From IMG/VR virus record IMGVR_UViG_3300029319_000042, positions 24,742-53,784 of that record: a DNA stretch of 29,043 nucleotides, one strand, 5' to 3'. Both the position numbers and the translations under genes were made by a program. This document shows positions 2,984 through 29,043 of this stretch, piece by piece (the first letter of the stretch is position 1; each line of letters starts with the position of its first letter). Source of the DNA: a virus. A model generated the notes under the pieces. The model was not told the DNA's origin. It did no database searches and saw nothing but the letters and a program-made list of their open reading frames with translations.

Positions 2984-4464
2984 AGATCGTATCCTTTGTT
3001 ATATTGTTGTGGTCTAATAATGTGTAAATGTTCCTTGGTCCTTGTTGCACCAACATAGAACAATCTATTTTCATCATCAGGATTTTTTTCATAACTTTTC
3101 ATTGTGTTAAAACTAAGATCAGTGAGCAACACAACGTTTTCTGCTTCACCACCTTTTGCACCATGTATTGTAGATAAAGTTATACGTGGTGCCTGGTTTA
3201 ACTTTTCTCCTTTTCTTCTCATTTGTTTTAAGTAGTTTACTTCTCGTCTTGGAGCTGCATCAAATGCTTCAAACCAGACAGCATTTGTTTTTAACCCATA
3301 ATGTTTTTTTAAAGTATCCATGTCGTACATACCATTTTTTAACATGCTTTTTAATTTTGTTTTATCTACATGCATGTAACCATAGATTCTTACAACTTGA
3401 TCGTAAGATAATAATTGACCCTTACATAGGTTCTCCCAATCTAATGCAGCTAAATGTAGTGTGTGTTCTTTTTGTTTTTTAAATTTATTATTGTAATAAT
3501 ATCCATTTTCATAAAGTGTTGGCTCTAACTTGTCTAACATGTATTTAGTTCTAGCTAGAACCAACCATTCACCTGATGACATGTTTATATCTTCAAAGTC
3601 ATCATACCTAGAAAGAGAGCCTTCGTGAATTTTTGGATTCCAAGATTTATTTATTCTTGTTTTAATTTTATTTATTATACTCATTGCAAGTCCATGCACT
3701 TTTGCAGGTATTCTATATGATTGTTGCAGAGGCAGCATCTGTCCCTCTTGCGCTATAAAAGAGTCCACATCTGCCCCTGCCCATCTAAATATTGCTTGGT
3801 CATCATCACCTGCAATAAAAGAATCTGTTGTTTTTTGCCAAATAGCTTTGGCCATACTCCATTGCATTCTTGATAAGTCTTGTGCTTCATCGATAAATAC
3901 AACATCAAACTTTGGCACTGCTAAATCAGATTTTGTAAATTCTAATATCATGTCATTAAAATCTATAAGATTGTGTTCTTTTTTATATCTTTGTAATTCA
4001 TTTGATATGATACGTAATTTATCTAATTCTAAATCTTGATTGTGTTCGTTTAAATTGTATTGTTGCTCTGCTGTAATACCTTTTAATATTGCAAGATTCA
4101 CTATTCGTAGATATTCACTATCCGATGTAAAGATTCCATTGTGATCATTTTCATAATCTGCATAGTTTATTTCTTCTTTTACTTTCCTGCCAAAATCTTG
4201 ATAATGCCTACGCTGCATAACGTTTTCTTTTTTGATTCCTAATCTTCTAAACGCTAGTGAATGCAGTGTTCTAAAATATGGTAAGTCGTCTTCATCTAAA
4301 TTAAATTTTTTAATGGCTCTGTCTCTTGCTTCGTACGCAGCTTTCTGTGTAAATGCAAAGTATCCAACCTTGTCAGGATCTGTGTTTTTAAGATAATCAT
4401 CTACTTTATTTAATAGTGTAGTTGTTTTACCTGTCCCTGGTGGTCCTAATACAATAGTTTTCAT
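2980..4464 (-). CDS. UvrD/PcrA-like superfamily 1 helicase
   Basis: The 494-residue protein contains the SF1 helicase motifs in order: Walker A GPPGTGKT (residues 7-14), motif Ia around AFTQKAA, motif II IDEAQ (191-195), motif III GDDDQAIFRWAGA (219-231), motif IV QQSYR (247-251), motif V STIHGAKGGEAENV (from 431), and motif VI with LFYVGATR (Arg475). This predicts an ATP-driven 3'-5' DNA unwinding enzyme. It is shorter than cellular UvrD (about 720 residues); the inserted 1B/2B-type domains are reduced. The gene starts at the base that ends the primase frame and overlaps DUF3310, so primase, helicase, DUF3310 and polymerase are translated as a chain. It most likely serves as the phage replication helicase, because no DnaB-type helicase is visible in the window. 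Confidence 0.95.
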   Translation of the reverse strand: MKTIVLGPPGTGKTTTLLNKVDDYLKNTDPDKVGYFAFTQKAAYEARDRAIKKFNLDEDDLPYFRTLHSLAFRRLGIKKENVMQRRHYQDFGRKVKEEINYADYENDHNGIFTSDSEYLRIVNLAILKGITAEQQYNLNEHNQDLELDKLRIISNELQRYKKEHNLIDFNDMILEFTKSDLAVPKFDVVFIDEAQDLSRMQWSMAKAIWQKTTDSFIAGDDDQAIFRWAGADVDSFIAQEGQMLPLQQSYRIPAKVHGLAMSIINKIKTRINKSWNPKIHEGSLSRYDDFEDINMSSGEWLVLARTKYMLDKLEPTLYENGYYYNNKFKKQKEHTLHLAALDWENLCKGQLLSYDQVVRIYGYMHVDKTKLKSMLKNGMYDMDTLKKHYGLKTNAVWFEAFDAAPRREVNYLKQMRRKGEKLNQAPRITLSTIHGAKGGEAENVVLLTDLSFNTMKSYEKNPDDENRLFYVGATRTKEHLHIIRPQQYNKGYDL

Positions 4465-5960
4465 TAGTATGGTGTTTCTTCTTTTAATTGTTTTTGTTTG
4501 TATTCTTCTGTTTTCTTTTCAAACTCTTCTACCATATATACAGATAATTTATTTTTACCTATTCGTTTGTCTGCACAACCACATTTTTCTCTTAACATTT
4601 CAGCCGTTCGTGAATATCCAAGATCCCAACGTTTACGCATTAAATGATTATGATAAAATTTATCAAACACAAAATAATGATAACCATTGTTAGTCCATGT
4701 ACCACCTCTTGGTAAATCTTCTTTTGAATCTAGTTGTGTTCTGTTTAAACAATACTCTTGTAAATGATTTTGTAATTGATCCTCTGTTCGTAAACCTGCT
4801 GCAGGTTCTGTAACTTCTGCATTATTTAATAATATATTTGTTATGTGCACCCAATCTTTTTCTTTCAATGTTGGTGGTCTACTTTTTAACTGCACCATGC
4901 ATGCTTCTTGAAATAAACTTTGTTGTCGTAAATGTTTTACACTTTCTAATTTTAATCTTTCTCCATCTACATTAAGATAATAATATGGATCTTCTAAGTC
5001 TATGACTTGTAAATCTGTAAGATTTGGAAATAATACTTCTTGCCCAATACCAAATTTTCTAGACCTACATAGTGTTTTGTCACACAAACTACACATTGGT
5101 TGATCATTACACTTATATCCCCAATCTTTTTTATCATGTTGTTTAATTATAATATCTACTTCTGAATCTGCTAATGGTTGTTGCATAGCTGTTTCGTTAA
5201 ATACATTTAATTTAGATTTCCAACCATCTGGCCATTTTTGTTTTGCATATACACCATAATGAAACAATGCATTATTTCTGCCACCCTCACCTATTTTATT
5301 TTCTGACATCAATTCTATGCATGGTGGTCCATCAGAATATTTTGTTTCTGGTCTTTTAATTTTTATTGTGCTTATGTCTTCTTGTTTATATCTTTCTTGT
5401 AATAGAAAAAAATCATCCAGTGTAGCACCACTGCCATCATCTTTAAATGCATATCGAACAGAATTTTTATAATTAAAGTATGGTAAATTAAGAAAATTTC
5501 CTGTATCATCTTGTGATTTTAATTCTGTTTGTTTTGGAAATACTTCTGAATTACCATAACCTAAAACAGCTCTTATTTGCACTAACTTATCTCTCATTAA
5601 TTTTGCTGATACATAATTAGATGTAAATAAAAATACATGTGCACCACCAGATTTTGATCTACAAACGACCAAAGGTAATTTCATGTTAGTTATTTTATCA
5701 ATTAGTTTTTTGTGATCAAAACCTGCGTAAGAATCTATATCGATACAACCCCACCTACACTCGTTGTTATCATTAATAGGTATAATACCTAAATTTTCTT
5801 CACCATCTAAATGTTTTTGCCAAAGTTCATCAGTGACTGGTTGACGTTTTACAAATGATTTACCTTTTACTTTTGTGCCATTACCATTTGTATCTTCTAC
5901 AATAGTGACACCATGTGCACGTTCTAAACCTGTAAATATATTTTTAAATCTCTCTATCAT
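4464..5960 (-). CDS. AEP-superfamily primase (TOTE-type primase domain)
   Basis: The 498-residue protein has an archaeo-eukaryotic-type primase core. Metal-binding residues D74 and D76 lie in GCIDIDSY. The nucleotide-binding SKSGGAH motif follows (His108), then SEVFPKQTEL. Downstream is a cysteine cluster C284-x5-C-x2-C-x4-C298 followed by RKFGIG, a zinc or iron-sulphur type motif common in such phage primases. The C-terminal 150 residues show no motif I know and may contact helicase or template. The expected product is a primer-making enzyme (primase or primase-polymerase). It is followed directly by the SF1 helicase with shared bases. A GC-rich hairpin (5972-6005) lies just upstream and no clear Shine-Dalgarno precedes the ATG, so expression may be controlled there. 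Identification rests on motif pattern; specificity is not known. Confidence 0.85.
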   Translation of the reverse strand: MIERFKNIFTGLERAHGVTIVEDTNGNGTKVKGKSFVKRQPVTDELWQKHLDGEENLGIIPINDNNECRWGCIDIDSYAGFDHKKLIDKITNMKLPLVVCRSKSGGAHVFLFTSNYVSAKLMRDKLVQIRAVLGYGNSEVFPKQTELKSQDDTGNFLNLPYFNYKNSVRYAFKDDGSGATLDDFFLLQERYKQEDISTIKIKRPETKYSDGPPCIELMSENKIGEGGRNNALFHYGVYAKQKWPDGWKSKLNVFNETAMQQPLADSEVDIIIKQHDKKDWGYKCNDQPMCSLCDKTLCRSRKFGIGQEVLFPNLTDLQVIDLEDPYYYLNVDGERLKLESVKHLRQQSLFQEACMVQLKSRPPTLKEKDWVHITNILLNNAEVTEPAAGLRTEDQLQNHLQEYCLNRTQLDSKEDLPRGGTWTNNGYHYFVFDKFYHNHLMRKRWDLGYSRTAEMLREKCGCADKRIGKNKLSVYMVEEFEKKTEEYKQKQLKEETPY

Positions 5961-18521: not shown

Positions 18522-19264
18522 TATAAACTTGCTAAACCTCCATATCTAAAAGAACCCATAGTGCTAGATAAATCAGCACCGCCACCATAACCACCACCTC
18601 CTGGTCTATCACTTGGTCCTTCCATAAAATCACGACTATATCCATCACCTTTACCTGGAGAAGACTCTGCAGCTTGGTAACCAAGAGTGCCTACTCTTCT
18701 TCCATAATCTTGTAAGCCTTTGGCAACACTTTCTCTTCGTTCTTCTTCTTGTTGTTTTAATTCTAATAATTTTTCTACTCTTTCATCTAGTTTAGTTTTT
18801 GGACCTTTATAATTTGCATCACCATATTTTCTAGCTAAAGTTTTTCTTATTGTATCTATTCTTCTATCTATAGCTGGGCCTAAACCAGCGCCTCCACTTC
18901 TACCATATACAGGAGAATATCCTTTCATAATACCTGATTGAATTCTACCTATGTTATCAAGTCCAAATTGTTGATCATAAAAATCTCTCATCATTCTTTG
19001 TTCAAATGTATCTTCAGGCACAAATGCTCTTAATGCCTCTATGCCAATACCTGCTAAGGCAAGAGGATTACCACTCATAGCTTGTGGCAATGTAAGAAAT
19101 AAATTTGCAGGTGTAAAACTAGTATTTCCTATTGGGTCAAATACTTTTGACGTTGTATTAATAAATTTACCAAATGGTGTGTTAGGATCAAAATTATCTC
19201 TTATTCTAAATGGTCTAAACATTTCAGGATTATCTCTAGGATTAAGTAAATTAAGTATACTCAT
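18521..19264 (-). CDS. Structural protein of unknown role with glycine-rich C-terminus
   Basis: The 247-residue product has an N-terminal part rich in Asn, Pro and Phe (MFRPFRIRDNFDPNTPFGKF). A hydrophobic middle follows (PANLFLTLPQAM, then GNPLALAGIGIEALRAFVPE), then a charged helix (KLLELKQQEEERRESVAKGL). A glycine-rich tail ends RYGGLASL. That ending, close to GGLAS(M/L), is shared with other structural proteins of marine phages in my recollection. It is joined to the large tail protein by a one-base overlap at 19264. No enzyme motif is present. Most likely it is a minor tail or connector-associated protein; alternatives such as an assembly chaperone cannot be excluded. Confidence 0.65.
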   Translation of the reverse strand: MSILNLLNPRDNPEMFRPFRIRDNFDPNTPFGKFINTTSKVFDPIGNTSFTPANLFLTLPQAMSGNPLALAGIGIEALRAFVPEDTFEQRMMRDFYDQQFGLDNIGRIQSGIMKGYSPVYGRSGGAGLGPAIDRRIDTIRKTLARKYGDANYKGPKTKLDERVEKLLELKQQEEERRESVAKGLQDYGRRVGTLGYQAAESSPGKGDGYSRDFMEGPSDRPGGGGYGGGADLSSTMGSFRYGGLASL

Positions 19265-21450
19265 TATCTACGTCCATCTGGTTGTACATCGAGTCTAAAA
19301 GTTCCTAATTTCCAATCTTGACTTGTTGATGTATTTTCTACTTTTAATGCAACAGCTCTTGCTCTTGCTCTTGTATCTACTTTTTGTGTGCTTGATGTAA
19401 TATCAAAAGGTCCAAGCGATGAAGTTGCAGCAGTGTCGTTTGGAAAATTTCTTAAATTTAATGTAACTCTAGTGCTACCTGTTTGTGATATAAAGTCTGG
19501 AACAAATCTTCTTATTTTCATAATAAATTCTCCATCTCCTCTAAATGATGCAACACCTGTTTGTTGACCTGTAGCTGCTCTTGTTTGTGTAATATCAAAA
19601 TCTCCAGATGTAATATTTGCAGCTATGGCAGTTATAGTTCCATTTCTATTTTGATCTACACCTGTTTCATGTTCATAGTAAGAAGTTCTACCTTCTGTAT
19701 TTCCTACAACATCGTGAGATGTGTCAGTATCAATATCATATTCTAAAGCGTGTGGCTTACCAAATACTGCTGAGTCTCTCCACATTGTTCTAGGTAATGT
19801 ACCAACAGTCCACACAGGTCTTTGTGGTGAAGAATCAAAATAATTATAAGCAACCATTTTGTTTACGACTTGTGAATTTGCTCCTGGATAAAACCACATA
19901 ATTTCACCAAATAAATTATTTAATCCTGCAGATATCATTTGATTACCAGAATTTAAATTTATATCATCGTATACATGATCTTCTACTAAACATGGTAATG
20001 ATTCTAATCTACCAGCATATCTAAAAAAACCATTCTCTGACATCCAGTATGCAGCACCATCTACTTCAACACATGCGTTCTGTCCTGCAAGTCCGCAGTT
20101 AGTTCCTACTTGTGAGAAAGCAAAAGTAAATGGAGATCCTACAAAACGCATTGTAAACAACGCTGTATCAGTCCAAACATAAATTGCATCTCTACCTCTA
20201 ATCGCTCCTCTGATCTGTGATCCGTCGGCCAGTCTTTGTGTGCCAGCTGTATTGATTGCAGATGGAGCATAAGTATTTATATCTTCTTGGTCCGAAAATC
20301 TTACAAACATATCGTCTTGAGTTGTTGGATCACCAATAGTTGTTTCTGTTCCAAAAAATACTAAGTGACGATCCGGAGTAGATACAACCATATGTCTTGA
20401 TGCCGTTGGTGCGCCAGATATAATTGTTGCTCTTGTATCTGTTGCTGCTGATGTAGAAGAGTCCCAAGAAAAACAAGCACCATCATGAATTAAACAAATT
20501 GCTCTATCACCAAAATTATCTAGTGACCACATACCAGGTTCTAATACTAAGTCACCTGATGCAGCTTCACCCCAAGCAACAAAGTCTGTTGTATTTGTTA
20601 CGGTTGCTCCATCACTATGTGATGCAGCAGTTGTACTTCTTCCGCCTCTTTCCACACCTGTTAATGTATTACCTGATACACCTGTGTATTTTATATCTTC
20701 TGTTCCTATTCTTATAAAACTAGTTCCAGAACTAGGAAACTGTGATGCATCAGTTAATACAATTGTAGTTGTTGAATCGTTAATAGCACCATTTAATGTT
20801 GTAGTTACAGCTGATCCATCTTCTCCACCCCAAGAACCAAGACCCCAACCAAAACCTTTTTCTTGAACAGCAGATCCAACCGTATAATAATGCTGTACTC
20901 TAATACCTCCTGATTCTGTAGCTCCTGATCCAGATTCGTTTGATGGCATAGTTATTTTAATTTGTGTATTATTAGGAACACTTGTAACCATAAATTTTTT
21001 GTTATCAAAATCTGATGCACCAAAATTAGATCCGGTTATTGTAGTAAAATTATCTAACAAAATAATATCTTGTGGATTGATTGTATGTCCACTAGGAAAA
21101 TTTATTGTAACAACGGCTGATCCGTTTTCCGTGGTAAATGCACCTGTGAGAGTAGTTGTAGATTTAATAGGGTGTATGTCATAAAATACACCTCCTGAAT
21201 AAGCATATAAAATTCTATTAGTGCCTATGATAGCATATCTTCTACCTTTACTATTAACAAAATGATGAAGACCTCTACCTGCCCCTGTTAATTCATTTTC
21301 GTTTAAAGTCCCTAATTGATTCCAACCACCTATTTTTTCAGGTGTGCCATATCTAAAACGAACATTATCACAATCGGTCCATTGACCTTCTGCTCCTGTT
21401 GGTGTGACTTGTTTGTTGATTCCTGGGGCAAAGCCTATTTTCTGTAACAT
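19264..21450 (-). CDS. Large tail protein (nozzle/tail-tube type)
   Basis: The 728-residue protein opens MLQKIGFAPGINKQVTPTGA, then EGQWTDCDNVRFRYGTPEKI and GGW. That start is shared by a phage family often annotated as tail or virion protein. It is beta-rich with repeated Gly/Trp/Tyr turns, compatible with a beta-propeller or nozzle fold like T7 gp12. Residues about 218-287 form an inserted Thr/Gly-rich beta domain (TTIVLTDASQFPSSG, then TEDIKYTGVSGNTLTGVERG) that recurs in many phage tail and capsid proteins. It is the first structural gene after the oxygenase cassette, with a possible promoter in the 26-base gap upstream and no clear Shine-Dalgarno. Tail location is strongly suggested; the exact position in the tail is inferred. 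Confidence 0.75.
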   Translation of the reverse strand: MLQKIGFAPGINKQVTPTGAEGQWTDCDNVRFRYGTPEKIGGWNQLGTLNENELTGAGRGLHHFVNSKGRRYAIIGTNRILYAYSGGVFYDIHPIKSTTTLTGAFTTENGSAVVTINFPSGHTINPQDIILLDNFTTITGSNFGASDFDNKKFMVTSVPNNTQIKITMPSNESGSGATESGGIRVQHYYTVGSAVQEKGFGWGLGSWGGEDGSAVTTTLNGAINDSTTTIVLTDASQFPSSGTSFIRIGTEDIKYTGVSGNTLTGVERGGRSTTAASHSDGATVTNTTDFVAWGEAASGDLVLEPGMWSLDNFGDRAICLIHDGACFSWDSSTSAATDTRATIISGAPTASRHMVVSTPDRHLVFFGTETTIGDPTTQDDMFVRFSDQEDINTYAPSAINTAGTQRLADGSQIRGAIRGRDAIYVWTDTALFTMRFVGSPFTFAFSQVGTNCGLAGQNACVEVDGAAYWMSENGFFRYAGRLESLPCLVEDHVYDDINLNSGNQMISAGLNNLFGEIMWFYPGANSQVVNKMVAYNYFDSSPQRPVWTVGTLPRTMWRDSAVFGKPHALEYDIDTDTSHDVVGNTEGRTSYYEHETGVDQNRNGTITAIAANITSGDFDITQTRAATGQQTGVASFRGDGEFIMKIRRFVPDFISQTGSTRVTLNLRNFPNDTAATSSLGPFDITSSTQKVDTRARARAVALKVENTSTSQDWKLGTFRLDVQPDGRR

Positions 21451-21458
21451 AACACATC

Positions 21459-21485
21459 ATTATAGCAGATTATAGGCTATTTCAA
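21459..21485 (-). promoter_or_regulatory. Possible promoter ahead of the tail/structural block
   Basis: The 26-base gap between the last oxygenase and the large tail gene holds two TATAAT boxes on the minus strand (21469-21474 and 21459-21464). TTGAAA (21485-21480) lies 15 bases ahead of the second. A consensus -10 twice in a short gap is unusual in this packed region, but the spacing is short and the region is AT-rich, so it could be chance. Confidence 0.3.
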
Positions 21486-22010
21486 CAGGCTAAAAATATC
21501 GTCCATTTTCTCCATAGTACAGATTTCCATATTAATAGAGAGTCTTAGCTCTTTTGATTTAACGTTTATAGGGTTATGCCAAAGCCAACCCGGAAATATG
21601 TACAGCTCATTTGTTCTGGGTGTTATCTTTAATATATCTTTTCGTTTACTTTTAAATTCTATTTCACCACCTTCCATGTCTTTAGGTATATGCAAATAAT
21701 AAACTGAGTTTATACTAGATGATAAAATATGATTATGCCAATTAACAGAGGGTATAAAGTCTTTATTAGAAGCAACAGCAAAACAACTATCTCTATTATT
21801 TGAACGAAGAGTAAAAGGGTTTAAATGTTTTTGAGCTGTGTTTACAAAATTTTGATATAGTTTTTTTGTAAAAGTATCTTTTTTAAGAACATAGTTATTA
21901 TCCCATTCAGCTCGTTTTATTTGATCTATAACATTACGTCGAACTCTAGCTTGTTCGCCTTTTTTAAAACTATAAAAATCTTCAATCCTAACAATTGGAA
22001 AGTCTTTCAT
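21477..22010 (-). CDS. 2OG-Fe(II) oxygenase-like protein (HxH type), last in the cassette
   Basis: The 177-residue protein has the compact double-stranded beta-helix pattern of phage 2OG oxygenases. It shows NWHNHIL (His92-x-His94), then SINSVYYLHIP, a GGEIEF turn, and IFPGWLWHNPIN (His145), then ELRLSINMEI with Arg156 as the likely 2OG-carboxylate partner. Where classical members have HxD, this one has HxH. The substrate is unknown. It is the final gene of the cassette; its ATG shares a base with the stop of the previous oxygenase (22010). The N-terminal 60 residues are basic and helical (ARVRRNVIDQIKRAEW). The fold call is good; activity is not shown. It could be an inactive or non-oxygenase DSBH protein. 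Confidence 0.75.
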   Translation of the reverse strand: MKDFPIVRIEDFYSFKKGEQARVRRNVIDQIKRAEWDNNYVLKKDTFTKKLYQNFVNTAQKHLNPFTLRSNNRDSCFAVASNKDFIPSVNWHNHILSSSINSVYYLHIPKDMEGGEIEFKSKRKDILKITPRTNELYIFPGWLWHNPINVKSKELRLSINMEICTMEKMDDIFSLLK

Positions 22011-22690
22011 TACTTAGGTATTTTTCTTTCTACTCTTTTAAATTTTGAGGGCAGTCCTAAATGTGGCCTTTTATCTAAAGCATTTGTTTCAGCTCCTGGA
22101 GTTTTAACGTCGTTGTAATGTAAAAACACTTGTGCACAATAATTACCTGTATAAGATTCTCTCCAGTGTTCTAACAAATCACCTCGATAAACTAACATAT
22201 CACCTGGATTTAAATCTACTTTAACACCTTTAGATTTGGAGGGCATATATTCTCCAGTTGTTTCATTGTAATAACCCTCCTCCTCTTTTGGATTAATATA
22301 TATGGGCCACTTATGGTCACCACCTAAATTAAGTGTAGTAGATATTTCACAGCTAAACCTATCTTTGTGTCTTCGTAATTCATCTTTTACTTTATAGATT
22401 CTTGTGTAAGAATAATTTTCATATAATTTAGTGCCTGTAACTTTTTCCATTTTAGGTTTTAATGCTGTTAACAATGTTTCCATAGCAATATCTCCATAGT
22501 GAGAATACGTTCCAGGAACTTGTGGATCTCTCCACGTACCCCAATCAGTGTTAAACTCAGACAAATATTGTGTAGTCATAAATGTTTGCAACACTTTTCT
22601 TTTTAACAAAATATAGTTTTTTAAATACTCTGCCATACTGGGGTCTATGGCTTTTTTAATTACGGTGTATTTATTCTTTTTCCAATTCAT
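22010..22690 (-). CDS. 2OG-Fe(II) oxygenase (HxD type)
   Basis: This 226-residue protein has YSYTRIYKVKDELRRHKDRF with HxD at His108/Asp110, then CEISTTLNLGGDHKWPIYIN, then LNPGDMLVYRGDLLEHW with the distal His175, and YCAQVFLHYND. The iron-binding triad is complete. At the usual 2OG-binding position there is no Arg or Lys; the segment is CAQVF, with Arg177 the nearest basic residue, so cosubstrate binding may differ. Such proteins are common in marine phages, with unknown substrate. Position 8 from the start of the cassette; its start is 3 bases after the upstream gene's stop. Hydroxylation of a protein, sugar or small molecule is the expected chemistry; the target cannot be read from sequence. 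Confidence 0.8.
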   Translation of the reverse strand: MNWKKNKYTVIKKAIDPSMAEYLKNYILLKRKVLQTFMTTQYLSEFNTDWGTWRDPQVPGTYSHYGDIAMETLLTALKPKMEKVTGTKLYENYSYTRIYKVKDELRRHKDRFSCEISTTLNLGGDHKWPIYINPKEEEGYYNETTGEYMPSKSKGVKVDLNPGDMLVYRGDLLEHWRESYTGNYCAQVFLHYNDVKTPGAETNALDKRPHLGLPSKFKRVERKIPK

Positions 22691-22693
22691 GAT

Positions 22694-23200
22694 TTATTGA
22701 TAGTTAAAATTTATTAATACTCTAATTTTTTCATTTGTGCAAGTTGTGCCATAATGTCTTTGGTTTGCTTTAAACAATACGATTGTATTTTCTTTTGAGT
22801 TTACAAATTTATCTGAACCGTGTCTTCCTCCATTATTAAAATAAGTGTAACCATTATTTGTATTAATATATAAAATGGCTGCTTTGTAATCTTCTTCTTG
22901 ATCTAAATGTGCTTCAAATTTATGTATTCTAAATGTTCGTGGTACTAAATTAGCTTTCACTCTTATTAATTTTTTTACCTTTAATTTTTGTAAAATAGGT
23001 TCTATTAAATTATACGCGCCAGAATTAATTTTGCCATCAGAAAAAAATGTGTGAGTTAGTTGATAATTGTTTAAATCATCTTTGCCTTCTTTATCAACTT
23101 TAGTATTATTGTAGTACCATGGAAAATTTGGACCCAACATAGGATCTTTTAAATTTTTAAAATCTTCTTTATTTAAAAAATTATTTTTTGTTTTTATCAT
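22694..23200 (-). CDS. 2OG-Fe(II) oxygenase (prolyl-hydroxylase-like, HxD type)
   Basis: The 168-residue product shows FEAHLDQEEDY with His98-x-Asp100, a YKAAILYIN strand, GGRHGSD, then FKANQRHYGTT with distal His149 and KIRVLINFNY with Arg160. All three iron ligands and the 2OG-binding Arg are in their expected order and spacing, so it is probably an active dioxygenase of the prolyl 4-hydroxylase-like class. The N-terminal half is polar and lacks motifs. It overlaps the arginase-like gene by 20 bases (23181-23200), the longest overlap here after 24264-24286, so the two proteins should be made together. Substrate unknown; peptide or virion protein hydroxylation is possible. Confidence 0.82.
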   Translation of the reverse strand: MIKTKNNFLNKEDFKNLKDPMLGPNFPWYYNNTKVDKEGKDDLNNYQLTHTFFSDGKINSGAYNLIEPILQKLKVKKLIRVKANLVPRTFRIHKFEAHLDQEEDYKAAILYINTNNGYTYFNNGGRHGSDKFVNSKENTIVLFKANQRHYGTTCTNEKIRVLINFNYQ

Positions 23201-23717
23201 TTTGTAATATTATTTCTATAGCATCGTATGTTTGAAGAGCAGTCCAATTACCCTCTTCGTGATTATGAAAAGATCTACACATAAAAAAATAATCATAATC
23301 AAACTTTGATATTTCTTTTATATCTAATTTAATATTTAAAATGTCATTATTTAATAAAACAAAGTCTTTTCGCCAATCTTGATATCTATTAAAAACAGAA
23401 TTGTAATTAGCTATCCAAGTGCACCCAGTAATTTTACCACTTTTCATGTAGTGCCCTAACCAATTACCTGACAAGAAACCAGCGTTTAAAGGTTCAGATG
23501 GTATATATTGTATATCGTGATGGTGATCTACGTTTACACAATAAACAGGTTCATTTAATTCATCGACAATTTTATTTATCTCTCTATGTGATTGTGCAAC
23601 AACTATTTTTTTAAATTTATTTTTTTTAATAATAGGGACTAAATTTTCTAGTAAATCTTTAGCATCTCTCGGAGAGCCTACCCAATCTATATCTATTGAT
23701 AGTAAATTTTTTACCAT
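23181..23717 (-). CDS. UPF0489/arginase-like metal-binding protein inside the oxygenase cassette
   Basis: The 178-residue protein is not a 2OG oxygenase. It begins MVKNLLSIDIDWVGSPRDAK with Asp9 and Asp11. It has VNVDHHHDIQY (Asp64, His65-67, Asp68), which resembles the DxHxD metal motif of arginases and deacetylases and of the UPF0489 family, and CRSFHNHEEGN (His151, His153) near the end. These acidic and histidine clusters suggest a bound metal pair, perhaps a hydrolase acting on C-N bonds. That is inferred from the fold-like motif, and no substrate can be named. It is translated with its neighbours through overlaps on both sides (7 and 20 bases). It might act on the same target as the oxygenases, or be an unrelated passenger. 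Confidence 0.55.
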   Translation of the reverse strand: MVKNLLSIDIDWVGSPRDAKDLLENLVPIIKKNKFKKIVVAQSHREINKIVDELNEPVYCVNVDHHHDIQYIPSEPLNAGFLSGNWLGHYMKSGKITGCTWIANYNSVFNRYQDWRKDFVLLNNDILNIKLDIKEISKFDYDYFFMCRSFHNHEEGNWTALQTYDAIEIILQNDKNKK

Positions 23718-24286
23718 GATGCTCTATAGTTAAATGCTATTGAAACTCTTTGTTTGTTTGATTTACTCTGTTTAACATAATGTATTAGATAACCTGGAAA
23801 GATAACAACCTTACCAGTTTTAGGAATTATATCCCAAGTAAAAGAATTATAGTTATTCCAATTTTCTACCATTTCATCGTGTATTACGTATTGTAGTTTA
23901 GAGTTAGGATTTAAAAGTTGTAAGTTACCACATCCTTCTTGTGCATAAGGAAAATAAACTATAGCTAAATCAGCTGTTGGATGTTGATGTGGCATAGAAA
24001 TATTATACGAACCATAATCATTAATCCATGCATCTATACAAATTTGTTTTGTGTTTTGTTTATATTGTAAAAGTTTGTGTGTTTCATCAGCTATTTTATT
24101 TACTTGATCAAACACCTCACTAAATTCTGTTACTAGTTTTGGATTATGAAATATATTTTTTTGTTTGTAGTCATCAGCAGTTTCTAATGCATCAGCGCAT
24201 TTATCTGTGATCCTATCGTGATTTAAATTTAATTCTTTCTCTATTACAAAAGAAGAAAAAATATTATTTATTTGTTGGTCCTTCAT
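23711..24286 (-). CDS. 2OG-Fe(II) oxygenase-like protein (HxH type)
   Basis: The 191-residue protein has IDAWINDYGSYNISMPHQHP with His100-x-His102, ADLAIVYFPY, then GKVVIFPGYLIHYVKQ with distal His169, and NKQRVSIAFNY with Arg180. The pattern (HxHP, FPGxLxH, R-x-S-x-x-FNY) is that of the compact phage 2OG oxygenase family close to Pfam PF13759, which commonly shows HxH rather than HxD. The first 70 residues are helical and charged. It overlaps the upstream oxygenase by 23 bases and the arginase-like gene by 7, so all three are strongly coupled. Catalysis is likely but not proven, since the usual carboxylate ligand is missing in the motif. Substrate unknown. Confidence 0.78.
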   Translation of the reverse strand: MKDQQINNIFSSFVIEKELNLNHDRITDKCADALETADDYKQKNIFHNPKLVTEFSEVFDQVNKIADETHKLLQYKQNTKQICIDAWINDYGSYNISMPHQHPTADLAIVYFPYAQEGCGNLQLLNPNSKLQYVIHDEMVENWNNYNSFTWDIIPKTGKVVIFPGYLIHYVKQSKSNKQRVSIAFNYRASW

Positions 24287-24959
24287 TTCTTAGATAACCT
24301 GTAAGTAACTTTCTAACTGCCTGTAAATTAAAATGCACAAATCTATAATCATCAACACCAGAATCTACGGTAAAACCATGATTTAAATATGCAGGAAAAA
24401 ATATCATTGTTCCAGGTTTAGGCTTATAATGTATAAGAGGACTAGCCATTGATACATTTTCTTTATCTTTTAATGGTAAGTCACTCATAGTTTTTGCAAT
24501 TCTAGGATCGTTAAAAAATGGCACTGATGTTCTATTACTACATTTTAAAAAATAAAAACCTGAAATGTGATTATCATAATGAATGTGTCCTTCGTGATGT
24601 CCGCCACCTTTTTTAGAAAACTCTTGTACCCATAACTCTGTCCACATTAATTCGTATTGTGATAAATCATAGCCAAACCAGTCTAAACAATTCCAACTGG
24701 TAGAACCAATATAATCTGTAAACTCTTTTAAATCAGGATCTCCTATCATACTTGATGAATGATGAGACATGGTTACATCTCCAACTTTCTTTTTCCATTC
24801 TTTTTCTCTTTGTTTTATAATTTTTTCATTATTCTTCTTAGCGCTCTTTATATATCTATCGCAAACTTTATTTACATCTTTAACAAATTCTGGAACCTCA
24901 ATATGAAAAATAGGTGATTGAAAATAAATAGATGTTTTAAGAGTATCTGTTTTAGACAT
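24264..24959 (-). CDS. 2OG-Fe(II) oxygenase-like protein (HxH type, larger)
   Basis: At 231 residues this is the largest member of the cassette. The N-terminal half holds a basic helix (SAKKNNEKIIKQREKEWKKK). The catalytic part has GGGHHEGHIHYDNHIS (His125-x-His127), SGFYFLKC, then GTMIFFPAYLNHGFTV with distal His194, and DDYRFVHFNL with Arg206. An insertion between the two halves (about residues 148-178) carries FFNDPRIAKTM and could shape the active site. The gene starts one base after the previous stop (24961), and its end overlaps the next gene by 23 bases. This resembles TIGR02466-type proteins. Function is likely hydroxylation or a related oxidation; substrate not identifiable. Confidence 0.78.
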   Translation of the reverse strand: MSKTDTLKTSIYFQSPIFHIEVPEFVKDVNKVCDRYIKSAKKNNEKIIKQREKEWKKKVGDVTMSHHSSSMIGDPDLKEFTDYIGSTSWNCLDWFGYDLSQYELMWTELWVQEFSKKGGGHHEGHIHYDNHISGFYFLKCSNRTSVPFFNDPRIAKTMSDLPLKDKENVSMASPLIHYKPKPGTMIFFPAYLNHGFTVDSGVDDYRFVHFNLQAVRKLLTGYLRNEGPTNK

Positions 24960-24960
24960 A

Positions 24961-25515
24961 TTACCAAACCCAACTTACGAATGAGTATCGAGTTCCTTTC
25001 TTTACACTATTTACTTTATGTGCATACATAAAATTACTAGGAAACATTACGACGTCTCCTTGTTTTAGTTTTATAGTTTTATCTTTCCACATTACAAATT
25101 CACCTCCATTGTAATTATCATTTAATACTCCAACAATACTTAATATTGGTATACCCTTTGTATGACCATCAAATATATTATGGATGTGATCACAATGCAT
25201 ATTAAAATTTTGACCTTTAGAATATTTGTTAACTCGTATTGGTGTATAACCATTCCAACCTGCATACCAAGGCATACGTAATTGTTTTATATATTTACCT
25301 ATAACATTATATAGTTTGTCCATAATAATTTGTTTAGATGGAAATTCTTCAAAAGACATGTCAGCTTCTTTATCTATAGAAAAAGTTCTATCGCCTTTAG
25401 GGTTATGATATTGTCCCTTTTCAAATTCTGTATCATCTAGTTCTTTTATAGCTTTATTACAAATGCTTTTACTAAGCATGGGATATACTTTTATGTAGTC
25501 AGTTAATTTACTCAT
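24961..25515 (-). CDS. 2OG-Fe(II) oxygenase (prolyl-hydroxylase-like, HxD type)
   Basis: The 184-residue protein has KYSKGQNFNMHCDHIHN with His107-x-Asp109, PILSIVGVLNDNYNGGEFVM, then KLKQGDVVMFPSNFMYAHKV with distal His166 and GTRYSFVSWVW with Arg176. This is a textbook iron triad plus 2OG-binding Arg, and the GG-E-F turn before the second half matches P4Hc-type domains. It is the clearest candidate for an active dioxygenase here along with the 25515 gene. Its ATG shares a base with the previous stop (TAATG). The N-terminal 60 residues include an acidic-aromatic part without known motif. Substrate not known; peptidyl-proline or small-molecule oxidation are possible. Confidence 0.87.
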   Translation of the reverse strand: MSKLTDYIKVYPMLSKSICNKAIKELDDTEFEKGQYHNPKGDRTFSIDKEADMSFEEFPSKQIIMDKLYNVIGKYIKQLRMPWYAGWNGYTPIRVNKYSKGQNFNMHCDHIHNIFDGHTKGIPILSIVGVLNDNYNGGEFVMWKDKTIKLKQGDVVMFPSNFMYAHKVNSVKKGTRYSFVSWVW

Positions 25516-26186
25516 TATTTAAATGGTTTTCCTAATGCCCAGATTACCAATGAATATCTTGTTCCTTTCGTAACTGGTTTAACTCTATGCCATAAATGTG
25601 ACGGAAATATGATAACACTTCCTCTAGGTTTAAAGTGTTTGTCTGTGTTTAATACTAACTTTGGATCTTGTGTCATTCTAGGTTGTATTTCTAATCGACC
25701 ACCTTTGTAATCTTTTGGATCTGATAATTGCACTATGCCAGAAACTTTTCTTGTTTTACCGTGATAGTTTGGATTGTTAGGAGTGTTATATGGCTCAGGA
25801 AAAGGATCATGGTGCCAATTGTAAAACTGATTTAATTTATATTTTGTAAACTGCATGGATTCAAAAAAATCAAATTCAAAATTCCAACCTGCGTTTTCAT
25901 TTGCCATATGAAAAAACGGAGAAATCTCTTCGTATATCCATCTATCTTCTAACCAAACAACATTAGAGTCTCTATGTTTTTTTAAATCTTTTAATTCTTT
26001 TTTAGTAATCGAATCAGATATTCCTTCATTGTTTAATTTTTTTTTAGTTCTTTTTTTAACTTTTTTTGAAGTGTCACCAGTTATAGCAACTAATTCTTTT
26101 TTCGAGTTCGCATGTTGTATTACATCATTACAAAATCTATCACCTAATCTACCTGTAAAATACCAGTATGCGTTTTTTAAATTCAT
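25515..26186 (-). CDS. 2OG-Fe(II) oxygenase (PKHD/PiuC-like, HxD type)
   Basis: The 223-residue protein carries NQFYNWHHDPFPEPY with His125-x-Asp127, KVSGIVQLSDPKDYKGGRLE, then RGSVIIFPSHLWHRVKP with distal His200 and GTRYSLVIWALGKPF with Arg210. This is the PKHD-type hydroxylase pattern (compare PiuC), including the FPSxLWHRV motif and the WALG-type end. It is thus a probable active dioxygenase. A lysine-rich segment near residues 41-50 (KKVKKRTKKK) and the helical 60-72 part are extra and could bind nucleic acid or polyanion. It overlaps the upstream gene by 4 bases and the downstream one by one. Substrate unknown. Confidence 0.88.
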   Translation of the reverse strand: MNLKNAYWYFTGRLGDRFCNDVIQHANSKKELVAITGDTSKKVKKRTKKKLNNEGISDSITKKELKDLKKHRDSNVVWLEDRWIYEEISPFFHMANENAGWNFEFDFFESMQFTKYKLNQFYNWHHDPFPEPYNTPNNPNYHGKTRKVSGIVQLSDPKDYKGGRLEIQPRMTQDPKLVLNTDKHFKPRGSVIIFPSHLWHRVKPVTKGTRYSLVIWALGKPFK

Positions 26187-26635
26187 ATTAAATCTATTGC
26201 GATTGAAAACCTTTTAATTTTTTTAGGAGAATATGGTTGTGAGTGTGTTTTACTTGCATCAAATACCAATAAAGAATTTTCAGGACATTTAGTAGATGTA
26301 ATTTTGTCATAACTATATTTCTCATTTCTAAATATAGTTCCTAAACTATCAGGATTTTTTAAAAAGTAAACAGCAGATATTATAGATGTTGGGTGTGTAT
26401 GCCAATTTATTATATCTCCCTCTGAATAATTAGCCCAAGAATATTGTATAGACATATCTTTAAAATATTTTTTCATAATTTTATTATAGAAATGTTGTGT
26501 TTCAGGATGCGTATGCAAATTCATCGGTGTCTGCAAACCAGGAACATTGTCATTCCAATATTTAACTTTTGTTTTTACAAACCGTAATAATCTTTTGCGT
26601 TCTTTTTCTTCTAATATATTCTTATACAATTTCAT
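26183..26635 (-). CDS. 2OG-Fe(II) oxygenase-like protein (HxH type)
   Basis: Taking the ATG at 26635, the product has 150 residues (MKLYKNILEEKERKRLLRFV). This start has AGAGG 9 bases ahead, and it overlaps the upstream oxygenase by 14 bases. The longer frame to 26731 would overlap it by 110 bases and has no such support. The core shows SEGDIINWHTHPTSIISAVY with His79-x-His81, then SLLVFDASKTHSQPY with His131 and KRFSIAIDLI with Arg142. The protein is short for the family but has all the elements in order. The HxHP/SAVYF pattern puts it next to the 27098 gene's product, with which it shares WHTHP exactly; they may be distant duplicates. Activity likely; substrate not known. Confidence 0.78.
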   Translation of the reverse strand: MKLYKNILEEKERKRLLRFVKTKVKYWNDNVPGLQTPMNLHTHPETQHFYNKIMKKYFKDMSIQYSWANYSEGDIINWHTHPTSIISAVYFLKNPDSLGTIFRNEKYSYDKITSTKCPENSLLVFDASKTHSQPYSPKKIKRFSIAIDLI

Positions 26636-27101
26636 TTTTAAACGCCTCTGGTTTATATGTCCACGGGTTAAGTAATAATACTTTTCTAGTCCCTTTAAAC
26701 GATTCAACTGAATGGTGCAATCCAGGATCAAATATAACTAATCTATTAGATTTAGGTTTTATCAAATCTCCGGCTAATGTTAATTCACCCCCTTTTAATT
26801 TTTTTACATCTGCATAAAATACTAAAGAACAAATAGGATATTTTAGTTTACCAGTTTTTTTGAAATAACCTTCATCTTTATCTACATGTGGATTGCATTG
26901 AGTATTGTTTTGGCTCCACTCTTCAAAACCTTTGTATTTACTAAAGTCATATGTTTTAGCAGCTTCAACTAAAAAAACATTTCTACGATAATCAATCTCA
27001 GCCCACCTAACAGGTATATTACCTTTTAAGTTATTAAATATTTTTATAATTGTTTTATAATTTTTTTTAGATAAAAAATTATCTATGACTCTAAAACTCA
27101 T
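26622..27101 (-). CDS. 2OG-Fe(II) oxygenase (HxD type)
   Basis: The 159-residue protein shows QCNPHVDKDEGYF with His72-x-Asp74, SLVFYADVKKLKGGELTL, then RLVIFDPGLHHSVESF with His129/His130 as the distal ligand and GTRKVLLLNPW with Arg139. Triad and 2OG-binding Arg are complete, in the P4Hc-like order. FDPGLHH replaces the more frequent FPSxLxH. The N-terminus has no known motif. It overlaps the first cassette gene by 4 bases (ATGA) and the next by 14. It is likely active as a dioxygenase. The substrate, and whether it works with its partners, cannot be read from the sequence. Confidence 0.85.
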   Translation of the reverse strand: MSFRVIDNFLSKKNYKTIIKIFNNLKGNIPVRWAEIDYRRNVFLVEAAKTYDFSKYKGFEEWSQNNTQCNPHVDKDEGYFKKTGKLKYPICSLVFYADVKKLKGGELTLAGDLIKPKSNRLVIFDPGLHHSVESFKGTRKVLLLNPWTYKPEAFKNEIV

Positions 27102-27607
27102 TTGTGCCTGCCTAGATAATCTGTTGGTATTATTTGAAAGTCACAATTAAAAGCAATAACAGTTTTTCTTTTATTTGTATTGTTAATGGGTGCTCGGTGT
27201 AACATATAAGATGGAAAAAATAATATATCTCCTTCTTTTACATTTACTTTTGTTTTAACTTTAAACTCTGTAATTAATTCTTTGCTTGGTAATTCTAAAA
27301 AATAAATTGCAGATAAATTAGATTGTGGGTGAGTATGCCAATGATGATTATTATTTTTTGAATACTGATTGTACCAACCATTATGTATTCTCCAAGTATT
27401 GCAACCAAAGTCTTCTGCGGTTTCTGTCATTAAATCTGACACCTCTTGATAAAATAAATCTAAATATTTTCTTTCTGCATTTACTGGTAAAGACCAATCA
27501 GATTTAACAAAAGATTTATCAGATTTAAAATGCGATGGCATTTTATTAATTAATGATAACAACTTCTTTTTTAAAGTCTTATGCTTTCTAAATTTCTTGA
27601 CCCACAT
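27098..27607 (-). CDS. 2OG-Fe(II) oxygenase-like protein (HxH type), first gene of the cassette
   Basis: The 169-residue protein has NNNHHWHTHPQSNLSAIYF with His91-x-His93, EGDILFFPSYMLHRAPIN with distal His137, and KRKTVIAFNCDF with Arg147, matching the compact PF13759-type 2OG oxygenases. It opens with a basic helix (MWVKKFRKHKTLKKKLLSLI). It starts 22 bases after the fibre gene ends, and the promoter-like element TTGACT-N16-TATATT lies across that junction with the ATG only 9 bases after the -10 box. No Shine-Dalgarno is visible, so the transcript may be nearly leaderless. It is the start of an uninterrupted 11-gene array. Oxidation of an unknown substrate is expected. Confidence 0.78.
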   Translation of the reverse strand: MWVKKFRKHKTLKKKLLSLINKMPSHFKSDKSFVKSDWSLPVNAERKYLDLFYQEVSDLMTETAEDFGCNTWRIHNGWYNQYSKNNNHHWHTHPQSNLSAIYFLELPSKELITEFKVKTKVNVKEGDILFFPSYMLHRAPINNTNKRKTVIAFNCDFQIIPTDYLGRHK

Positions 27608-27616
27608 AGGTAAGTC

Positions 27617-27644
27617 AATATAGCAAATTTTAATTTACAGTCAA
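27617..27644 (-). promoter_or_regulatory. Promoter-like element driving the oxygenase cassette
   Basis: On the minus strand, TTGACT (27644-27639), a 16-base spacer and TATATT (27622-27617) form a good sigma70-type promoter that overlaps the end of the fibre gene. The -10 region reads GCTATATTGAC, nearly identical to GCTATATTGTC at the leftward promoter of the replication block (7727-7717), with the same 16-base spacing. Confidence 0.55.
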
Positions 27645-29043
27645 TGTTCCAGAAACTGTGAATGTAGCAACAGAATGACCACCAACACAAGTAACTTGGT
27701 TAGTTCCTGGTGATACACTTAATGGGTGTCCTGCAGGTGATCTTACAACTACAATACCTGATCCACCTCTAGATCCATATTTAGATCTTCCACATGGAGA
27801 TAAATAAGTTGGTGCTCCATAAGACGTAGGTCCACCTGTACCTCCGCCACCACCGCCTCCGGTGTTTGCTGTTCCTGAATAAGCTAATTCACTTGGTGCT
27901 CCACCAGCGCCATTTCCACCGCCACCAGCTCCTCCAGATCCACCAGATACACCTGGATAACCTCTATCTGTACCAGAACCACCGCCACCAGCGTAAGTTA
28001 CATCTGATCCTGTAATTGAATTTGGTGCTCCATCTCCACCAGCTACACCTGGGTATCCAGATCCACTTGCTCCAGCTGCTGTAGCACCACCACCGGCACC
28101 ACCACCTCTGTTGTCAGGGTTTCCTCCAGATCCTCCAGAATTTCCTTCTGGTGGTGAGAAACCTCCAGCATTACCAGATCCTCCTGGTCTTTTTGGAGCT
28201 TTTGCACTAGGCCAACCTCCAGAACCTGATCCTCCAGGTCCTCCTCTTCTTCCATTATTATTGTTCCAAGGATTACCACAAGATGCATTTAATGGATAGG
28301 CACCACCTGATGATTGAATTAAAACGGTACATCCTTGTTTAATTGATGATACGTTTCCATAACCTTCTCCAGATCCATCTGGCGGACTAGCACATGGTGC
28401 AGGATAAGCTGTACCACAAGAATTTCCACCTCCGGCTCCGACTGTAATTGTATAAGTTGAAGATGAACAAACTGTTAATGCGCATCCTTGTAATGGTGCA
28501 GGTCCATAACCTGAAGCTCTATAACCTCCGGCTCCACCACCAGCAAAACTACCTCCAGCTCCGCCACCAGCTACTACTAAATAATTTAATGTTACTGATT
28601 GTATTTCTGTTCCATCTGGCCAGTTACCACCTTCTTGTGCATCAAATTGTTGAGACAAAGGCCAGTTACCTCTGTTGTTATTTAATTCTTTTGTAAGGAC
28701 TACTCCAGATCCTCCGTTTCCTCCTCGGCCTCCATAAGAGGGACCAAAACCTATTCCACCTCCACCGCCTCCGGTGTTGTCTGTTCCATTGTTTCCGACC
28801 GTTGAAGGGCTAGGTACGGTTGTAGGGCCTCCTGCTCCTCCACCGCCAGGTCCTGCAGCTCCTGCAGTTCCTCCAGTTCTTGCACCACCGCCACCGCCTC
28901 CAGCGAATACTGAACACGTTGGTCCTATGTTTCCAAAAGTTGCACTTACATCTAAACCTGCTCCACCTGCTCCACCTTGTGTAACTCCAGGTGCATTTCC
29001 TCCAGCAGCAGATTTTCCTCCGCCACCTCCACCTGCGTGAGCA
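27630..29043 (-). CDS. Glycine-rich fibre-like protein, 5' end beyond the right window edge
   Basis: The frame is open from the stop at 27630 to the right edge, at least 471 codons, so the start lies outside. A TTG at 28658 could be mistaken for a start but lies within the coding frame (GNWPLSQQFDAQ). The visible part is made of glycine-rich modules. A first ends NGGSGVVLTKEL, and a second opens SVTLNYLVVAGGGAGG and closes GGSGIVVVRS. A cysteine-containing beta region (CALTVCSSSTYTITVGAG) lies between. The C-terminus HSVATFTVSGTLTV is the usual cap of phage glycine-rich tail fibres. The gene is thought to encode a receptor-binding or fibre-tip protein; glycine-rich loops may form polyglycine-type helices (inferred). 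A 26-base near-repeat links the modules. It directly precedes the oxygenase cassette. Confidence 0.8.
   Translation of the reverse strand, partial: AHAGGGGGGKSAAGGNAPGVTQGGAGGAGLDVSATFGNIGPTCSVFAGGGGGGARTGGTAGAAGPGGGGAGGPTTVPSPSTVGNNGTDNTGGGGGGIGFGPSYGGRGGNGGSGVVLTKELNNNRGNWPLSQQFDAQEGGNWPDGTEIQSVTLNYLVVAGGGAGGSFAGGGAGGYRASGYGPAPLQGCALTVCSSSTYTITVGAGGGNSCGTAYPAPCASPPDGSGEGYGNVSSIKQGCTVLIQSSGGAYPLNASCGNPWNNNNGRRGGPGGSGSGGWPSAKAPKRPGGSGNAGGFSPPEGNSGGSGGNPDNRGGGAGGGATAAGASGSGYPGVAGGDGAPNSITGSDVTYAGGGGSGTDRGYPGVSGGSGGAGGGGNGAGGAPSELAYSGTANTGGGGGGGTGGPTSYGAPTYLSPCGRSKYGSRGGSGIVVVRSPAGHPLSVSPGTNQVTCVGGHSVATFTVSGTLTVN

Follow-up and report, generated by a model that had tools for sequence, protein, structure and literature searches.

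A gapless array of ten 2OG-Fe(II) oxygenase genes and a permuted arginase-like gene beside the fiber gene of a pelagiphage: a putative island for tailoring virion proteins

Introduction

Among the genes of abundant ocean phages that still lack an explanation, those for oxygenases dependent on 2-oxoglutarate (2OG) and Fe(II) are some of the most common; they are usually filed as host-metabolism genes. For HTVC023P-type pelagiphages, the passages on these genes in Wittmers et al. (2022, PMC9599517) describe eight non-orthologous 2OG genes with 'ferrochelatase' partners as co-located auxiliary metabolic genes (AMGs), and the genome of the cyanophage S-SCSM1 contains 24 2OG genes (PMC9602691). Here, we analyze a stretch of 29,043 nucleotides (hereafter the window), bases 24742–53784 of the 60,294-bp IMG/VR record IMGVR_UViG_3300029319_000042, whose source is an HTVC023P-type pelagiphage (SAR11-infecting type). 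The minus strand of positions 21477–27607 carries eleven open reading frames (ORFs), ten for oxygenases (ox1–ox10) and one for an arginase-like protein (arg), next to a gene for a glycine-rich fiber-like protein.

Two further groups of described enzymes bear on this locus. Those members of the UPF0489 family that have been characterized act as peptide arginases (PMC12703449, PMC10028609). During biphenomycin synthesis, one Arg residue is modified first by a UPF0489 arginase and then by a 2OG JmjC enzyme (PMC12707348). The active site of VirX1, the flavin halogenase of the cyanophage Syn10, is large and open, and neither a native substrate nor a pathway is listed for the enzyme (PMC8407142).

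Results

The content of the array tracks the adjacent fiber region and not the phage backbone. The fiber-like gene (27630–29042, minus strand) was recognized by PF21722 Gly_rich_2 (2.6e-6) and phrog_2295 (1e-34); the window contains the C-terminal 470 aa of its product, the full ORF of ~654 aa extending upstream of the window (L113:1372-3336), with a gap of 22 bp to ox1. On the opposite side, the island is closed by a gene for a virion structural, stabilization-protein-like product (stab; 19264–21450, minus strand), assigned by phrog_3287 'virion structural' (1e-96) and synteny. A first-pass annotation of the window had placed the array between the fiber gene and the main tail gene; both neighbors are indeed structural, but the name 'main tail gene' is not established for stab. 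The nearest isolates, 023Pt_psg01, HTVC027P and HTVC023P, show 45–49% identity in the stab protein.

In loci with both flanks, the 7 kb upstream of stab contained 40 oxygenase or arg genes, and the 7 kb downstream contained none. In 67% of dereplicated loci, at least one of the three ORFs preceding the array was Gly-rich (>18% Gly), compared with 2% for the genes after stab. Partial Mantel tests were performed on 52 loci, on 43 dereplicated loci, and on the 31 loci obtained with the stab query only, the least biased set. The array–fiber correlation, controlling for stab and the downstream genes, was r = 0.43, 0.37 and 0.35, respectively (p = 0.001–0.002), whereas the array–stab correlation, controlling for the fiber, was 0.25 and 0.24 in the two larger sets and 0.02 (p = 0.41) in the least biased one. 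The fiber gene and stab are equally close to the array, and adjacency alone is therefore insufficient to explain this difference.

The head-to-tail organization described in the first-pass annotation was confirmed, with overlaps of at most 23 nt and gaps of at most 3 nt, and every PF13759 and PF13640 match of the 60,294-bp record falls inside the array. All ten oxygenase genes are confirmed as members of the double-stranded beta-helix, 2OG-Fe(II) type. Eight exceed the Pfam cut-offs for 2OG families: ox1 (27098–27607; 2.9e-13), ox3 (26183–26635; 2.1e-7, also phrog_81 at 1e-15), ox6 (24264–24959; 3.5e-14), ox7 (23711–24286; 1.4e-16) and ox10 (21477–22010; 3.5e-8) match PF13759, and ox2 (26622–27101; 1.5e-6), ox4 (25515–26186; 1.7e-15) and ox5 (24961–25515; 4.7e-15) match PF13640, all on the minus strand. 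For ox3, the ATG at 26635 was preferred as the start over the TTG at 26731, several orthologs beginning at the corresponding ATG. On the same strand, ox8 (22694–23200) matches phrog_274 (1e-44) and phrog_81 (5e-5) and has an invariant triad; phrog_274 also matches accepted 2OG proteins of the array, and its label, 'DNA endonuclease V', is wrong for ox8.

The remaining gene, ox9 (22010–22690, minus strand), has family matches only to phrog_2954/3531 (9e-50), both named 'ferrochelatase'. Its AlphaFold (AF2) model (predicted local distance difference test, pLDDT, 93.7) retrieved the Pseudomonas putida prolyl-4-hydroxylase with Foldseek (PDB 4j25/4iw3, E 5e-8), including the EF-Tu complex, among other 2OG enzymes, with 575 PDB chains at E < 0.001. 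The nearest solved relatives are thus prolyl hydroxylases acting on proteins (EF-Tu, PHD substrates). The HxD...H motif of ox9 is invariant in an alignment of 37 sequences, and the protein has no Pfam ferrochelatase match; the ferrochelatase assignment was rejected. As the 'ferrochelatase' of phrog_2954 is an oxygenase, the 2OG–ferrochelatase partnership proposed in PMC9599517 becomes a 2OG–2OG partnership. The same naming recurs in many marine phage records, where 'ferrochelatase' (phrog_2954/3531) and 'DNA endonuclease V' (phrog_274) are given to 2OG-oxygenase-like proteins; for phrog_2297 and phrog_1644, the labels used in this way are 'DNA endonuclease' and, in all probability, 'minor coat protein'. 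Published AMG counts and heme or repair readings carry this PHROG naming error over.

The His/(Asp or His)/His pattern noted earlier in all ten genes proved to be an invariant triad in each, as judged in 8–15 array-bearing sequences per gene. Five enzymes are of the HxD..H type, namely ox2 (H72xD74..H130), ox4 (H125xD127..H200), ox5 (H107xD109..H166), ox8 (H98xD100..H149) and ox9 (H108xD110..H175), and five of the HxH..H type, namely ox1 (H91xH93..H137), ox3 (H80xH82..H132), ox6 (H125xH127..H194), ox7 (H100xH102..H169) and ox10 (H92xH94..H145). A three-His metal site in the latter would be unusual chemistry for the 2OG superfamily. A distal Arg, counted earlier in nine proteins, is indeed present in nine of the ten and invariant in eight; that of ox8 is not invariant, and in ox9 an invariant Gln (Q187) replaces it. 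For ox1–ox10, 2OG/Fe(II)-dependent catalysis is predicted from family membership.

Paralog pairs within the array have a median identity of ~27%, in agreement with the earlier view that they are too divergent to be recent tandem copies. Across all unsaturated comparisons of the eleven genes, omega (the ratio of non-synonymous to synonymous rates) was 0.02–0.38, including 0.02–0.12 for ox1 (synonymous divergence not saturated), 0.06–0.22 for ox2 and 0.06–0.11 for arg; all eleven genes are therefore maintained by purifying selection. They are intact, and their order is fixed in relatives down to 56–80% protein identity.

In relatives, the slot between fiber and tail genes was searched with profiles derived from the genes of the window, and matches below 35 bits were left out of the counts; an 'ox7-like' ORF before ox4 (23–30 bits) was discarded on this basis. 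Among 54 relatives with at least 6 kb before stab, the slot holds 0–10 oxygenase genes (median 4). Nine of these loci, including the window, have at least eight, and the ten-gene order is kept in L094, L096 and L105. In the sublineage L097/L099/L101/L102, ox5 was lost and another oxygenase gene lies between ox9 and ox10; L104 has an eleventh oxygenase gene, and L015 (ten) and L046 (nine) are separate expansions. Loci retrieved with arg form a sample enriched for full arrays. A 7.8-kb contig from a Flavobacteriaceae metagenome-assembled genome (NZAX01000069; L114:1-7766) contains little besides ten oxygenase genes, an arg homolog and a DUF6445 gene, and is probably a viral contig binned into that genome. 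In a second clade, comprising HTVC027P (L010:8093-9754), L021, L031 and L089, the slot oxygenase genes run in the opposite direction to the structural genes, which suggests cassette exchange. The window array is real, maintained and larger than most, but islands of this kind can already be seen in published genomes, where they have in part been noted as AMGs, and it is a variant of them.

The earlier assignment of an arginase-like gene inside the array was upheld and refined. The arg gene (23181–23717, minus strand; 178 aa) encodes a UPF0489/ureohydrolase-like protein with the motif order SIDID - SH - DHHHD, and 94 relatives were found in viral contigs. Across 40 divergent members, D9, D11, H44, N62, D64, H66, H67, D68, W86, W101 and S149 are invariant; these include all six ureohydrolase metal ligands (D9xD11, H44, D64xH66xD68; 40/40). 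The metal ligands of the peptide arginase OspR are H12, D39/H41/D43 and D165/D167 (PMC10028609). With its DxD motif placed first instead of last, arg has the ureohydrolase motifs in circularly permuted order. A DHH-phosphoesterase (DxD, then DHH) was dropped as a candidate, the invariant set being the six ureohydrolase ligands and the Pfam matches being to UPF0489 and Arginase.

UPF0489 was matched by 5 of 40 arg relatives (best 3.5e-5; 18.5 bits against a cut-off of 27 in the one examined closely) and Arginase by 3 of 40; the three matches that were located cover the H...DxHxD part only. A bacterial (clostridial) protein, L197, exceeds the UPF0489 cut-off (30.8 bits) with the same N-terminal DLDLD order, and hhalign joined it to the phage arg profile with a probability of 92% (E 6e-7). 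Clostridial genomes encode proteins with the permuted motif order, L197 and also L191, an arg homolog. With L191 as the query, weak cyanophage relatives of arg were found; tblastn of arg itself against phage isolates found nothing. BFVD returned one S-RSM4 protein (E 7e-7), and the S-RSM4 fiber island contained no arg match. Sequence comparison of arg with the PDB (phmmer, profile) gave no meaningful match, and its AF2 model is of moderate quality (pLDDT 78). We consider arg to be related to the peptide-arginase family on the strength of its motifs and matches, not a proven peptide arginase; Arg-to-Orn (ornithine) chemistry on a peptide may be its activity.

Further enzymes are encoded between the oxygenase genes of the slot in relatives: a flavin Trp halogenase (PF04820, 1e-95; a cluster common to eight loci), an O-carbamoyltransferase (9e-50; in five loci), and proteins with a weak resemblance to glycosyltransferases (GT8/GT9-like). 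Similar gene sets occur between the tail fibers and neck gp13 in cyanomyophages and pelagimyophages. The row after the tail fibers of syn9/Syn10 comprises seven profile-detected oxygenases, one JmjC_2 protein, one DUF6445 protein (weakly 2OG-like) and two Trp halogenases, and the S-RSM4 island after the tail fibers has eight oxygenases. In comparable islands, syn9 gp49 and S-RIM44 gp158 are JmjC_2 proteins, a family that includes ribosomal-protein hydroxylases. syn9 gp42 (L187:10479-12071) is a VirX1 ortholog (1271 bits over 530 aa), and the Syn10 copy is at L206:11514-13106; the VirX1 gene sits in a 2OG island adjacent to tail fibers, a position that suggests where to seek its native substrate. 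The earlier impression that ten such genes in one unit lack precedent did not hold: eight (PMC9599517), 24 (S-SCSM1, PMC9602691) and seven to eight (syn9/Syn10/S-RSM4) are on record, though, in the passages concerned, not as a fiber-linked system.

Promoter-like sites are no more numerous within the array than in shuffled sequence (35 against 38.8 expected), and no minus-strand terminator was found at either array border. The assembled fiber ORF is interrupted by a run of N; its Gly-rich product has GYPG and RGG-like segments that recur, plausible candidates for hydroxylation or arginase sites. Elsewhere in the window, positions 4464–5960 encode a primase with a TOTE-type archaeo-eukaryotic primase domain (PF22548, 4e-15), part of a podophage replication module.

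Discussion

We favor, as somewhat better than an even prospect, the reading that the array is a module modifying side chains of the fiber or another tail protein, in the manner of the maturases of ribosomally synthesized and post-translationally modified peptides (RiPPs). What was observed and leads to it is the conservation of fold and ligands, selection on every gene, the position, the array–fiber covariation, and the tailoring enzymes in the slot. From these we infer that the substrate is a protein, that this protein is the fiber, that Arg is converted to Orn, and that the modification plays a part in host recognition. The protein-directed prolyl hydroxylases nearest to ox9, the JmjC_2 proteins of comparable islands, the UPF0489 relationship of arg and the occurrence of such islands in phages with unrelated tail types also speak for this reading. 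A virion protein is proposed as the substrate because the array holds no precursor peptide and because position and covariation point to the fiber. The array products would act together on side chains of a structural protein encoded nearby, the neighboring Gly-rich fiber being the likeliest: the 2OG-type oxygenases would hydroxylate or otherwise oxidize different residues or positions, the permuted UPF0489-like arg would hydrolyze peptidyl arginine to ornithine, and in relatives the Trp halogenase, the carbamoyltransferase and possible glycosyltransferases would add further groups. The reactions of these enzyme families, namely hydroxylation, conversion of Arg to Orn, aryl halogenation and carbamoylation, overlap with the side-chain chemistry of RiPP clusters. 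The outcome would be a receptor-binding or surface-exposed protein that differs between phages in its chemistry, beyond its sequence, and with such phage-specific protein chemistry the enzyme set would be swapped together with the fiber.

The first-pass annotation had offered two ideas, a multi-step oxidation pathway and a diversity-generating set of modifiers, with fiber protein among the possible targets. The association with the fiber region is supported, and modification of the fiber is what we too would favor. A changing modifier set fits the gene gain and loss between relatives; nothing speaks directly for a single small substrate processed in strictly successive steps. Tailoring of a virion protein fits both ideas in the form of several modifications of one protein by a changing set of enzymes.

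Several points weigh against this interpretation. No activity, product or mass shift is on record for any island gene. The covariation with the fiber could mirror the exchange of one hypervariable block, not function. The ox9 homologs of the cyanophages S-P4, S-ShM2 and ACG-2014f lie far from fibers, beside replication or metabolism genes. Of 76 arg loci, 34 lack a 2OG gene in the surrounding 3 kb, and in S-RSM4/S-SCSM1 the weak relatives of arg lie outside the fiber island or in regions that were not examined. As for arg, the window protein has no UPF0489/PF12640 profile match in the Pfam search, and Foldseek with its model found nothing below 0.001 in the PDB, with agmatinase, arginase and histone deacetylase in the noise only. 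Alignment by hhalign of the native and permuted arg with three canonical UPF0489 proteins gave no discrimination, and the permutation claim consequently draws on motif order and the bridging protein L197.

The strongest rival, which we nevertheless think unlikely, is that the island tailors a surface glycan, either attached to the phage or in host lipopolysaccharide (LPS), e.g., for superinfection exclusion, with oxygenases and glycosyltransferases jointly altering its sugar or acyl groups. The weak GT8/GT9-like genes in the slot of relatives would suit it, as would the carbamoyltransferase, whose family acts on sugar hydroxyls; isolates have a glycosyltransferase gene 1–2.5 kb after the stab gene, S-SCSM2R mixes 2OG genes with glycosyltransferases, and LPS genes occur in pelagimyophage fiber regions (PMC7029224). 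The window array, however, contains no glycosyltransferase, the UPF0489-type arginase and the Trp halogenase of relatives suggest amino-acid side chains, and the nearest solved folds to ox9 act on proteins or proline. Maturation of a small RiPP-like peptide (toxin or signal) from a short ORF, with the island as the maturase set, is a further candidate, and the combination of arginase, oxygenases and halogenase resembles RiPP clusters (PMC12707348, PMC12703449). Yet the gapless array, whose intergenic gaps are all at most 3 nt, has no precursor gene, leader, protease or exporter, and we give this explanation the least credence of those considered.

Hardly more probable is the current literature reading as AMGs, in which the nitrogen or energy metabolism of the host is adjusted through 2OG turnover, or an iron/heme set operates with a ferrochelatase. 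It is proposed in passages of PMC3037559 and PMC9599517, and the nitrogen-metabolism idea recurs in those of PMC9602691, but the 'ferrochelatase' is an oxygenase, and consuming 2OG needs neither ten divergent enzymes nor a fixed fiber-side slot or covariation with the fiber. That the enzymes modify or repair the DNA or RNA of the phage is similarly improbable. AlkB and TET/JBP do belong to the 2OG superfamily, some other 2OG genes of cyanophages are neighbors of uvsW/helicase, and DNA hypermodification genes are mentioned for HTVC023P-type phages in the relevant part of PMC9599517. Against this, the 60,294-bp record has no TET/JBP match, the enzymes are of the PF13759/PF13640 type, and their site is the structural module and not the replication module.

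Should the islands indeed tailor fibers, the AMG reading, including the ferrochelatase/heme idea, would be wrong for them, a chemical layer of adhesin variation invisible in the fiber sequence would exist, and the native substrate of VirX1 would become testable. The permuted arginase-like family is a candidate enzyme for putting ornithine into proteins. More speculatively, and with distinctly less confidence, marine phages with unrelated tails may have converged on fiber-adjacent islands that diversify receptor-binding proteins post-translationally (multi-site hydroxylation, Arg to Orn by a permuted arginase, halogenation, carbamoylation), with host range tuned by exchange of enzyme sets, in effect a RiPP-like maturation for virion proteins.

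Comparison with Described Systems

Similar islands beside the tail-fiber genes of other marine phages have so far been read piecemeal as 'metabolic' genes. What is new here is the identity of the ox9 'ferrochelatase' as an oxygenase, the permuted arg, and the tracking of the fiber region by the array together with the other slot enzymes; the gene number itself is not new. The fiber-tailoring reading, the ferrochelatase correction and the permuted arginase-like partner were not found in the literature searched, which covered few subscription journals and is thus weak evidence of novelty.

The pelagiphages of Wittmers et al. (2022, PMC9599517) are of the same phage type and carry the same kinds of genes. 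As presented in the passages on these genes, their 2OG genes are nearby but not adjacent and have no function assigned, compared with ten plus arg in gapless order in the window, and those passages contain no fiber link or arginase-like gene. The cyanophages S-SCSM1, syn9/Syn10, S-RSM4 and S-RIM44 have comparable numbers, the same subfamilies (ox1, 4, 5, 7, 8 and 9 types), and islands directly after the tail fibers. They differ in being myophages, in the two Trp halogenases and the JmjC_2 gene of the syn9/Syn10 and S-RIM44 islands, and in the absence of arg from the island regions examined; the literature treats these genes as AMGs. The VirX1 halogenase of Syn10 (PDB 6QGM; PMC8407142) has a counterpart in podophage relatives, where a halogenase fills the corresponding slot, whereas the window array itself has none.

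The peptide arginases OspR and BipC (UPF0489/PF12640; PMC10028609, PMC12707348) resemble arg in their ureohydrolase motifs and in being encoded beside oxygenases. In comparison, arg is shorter (178 aa), has its DxD first, and has relatives that match the Pfam family only weakly, the window protein itself giving no match; the window also has no precursor peptide gene, and ten oxygenases. The RiPP pathways of OspR and BipC, in which Arg is converted to Orn and then hydroxylated, provide a chemical precedent.

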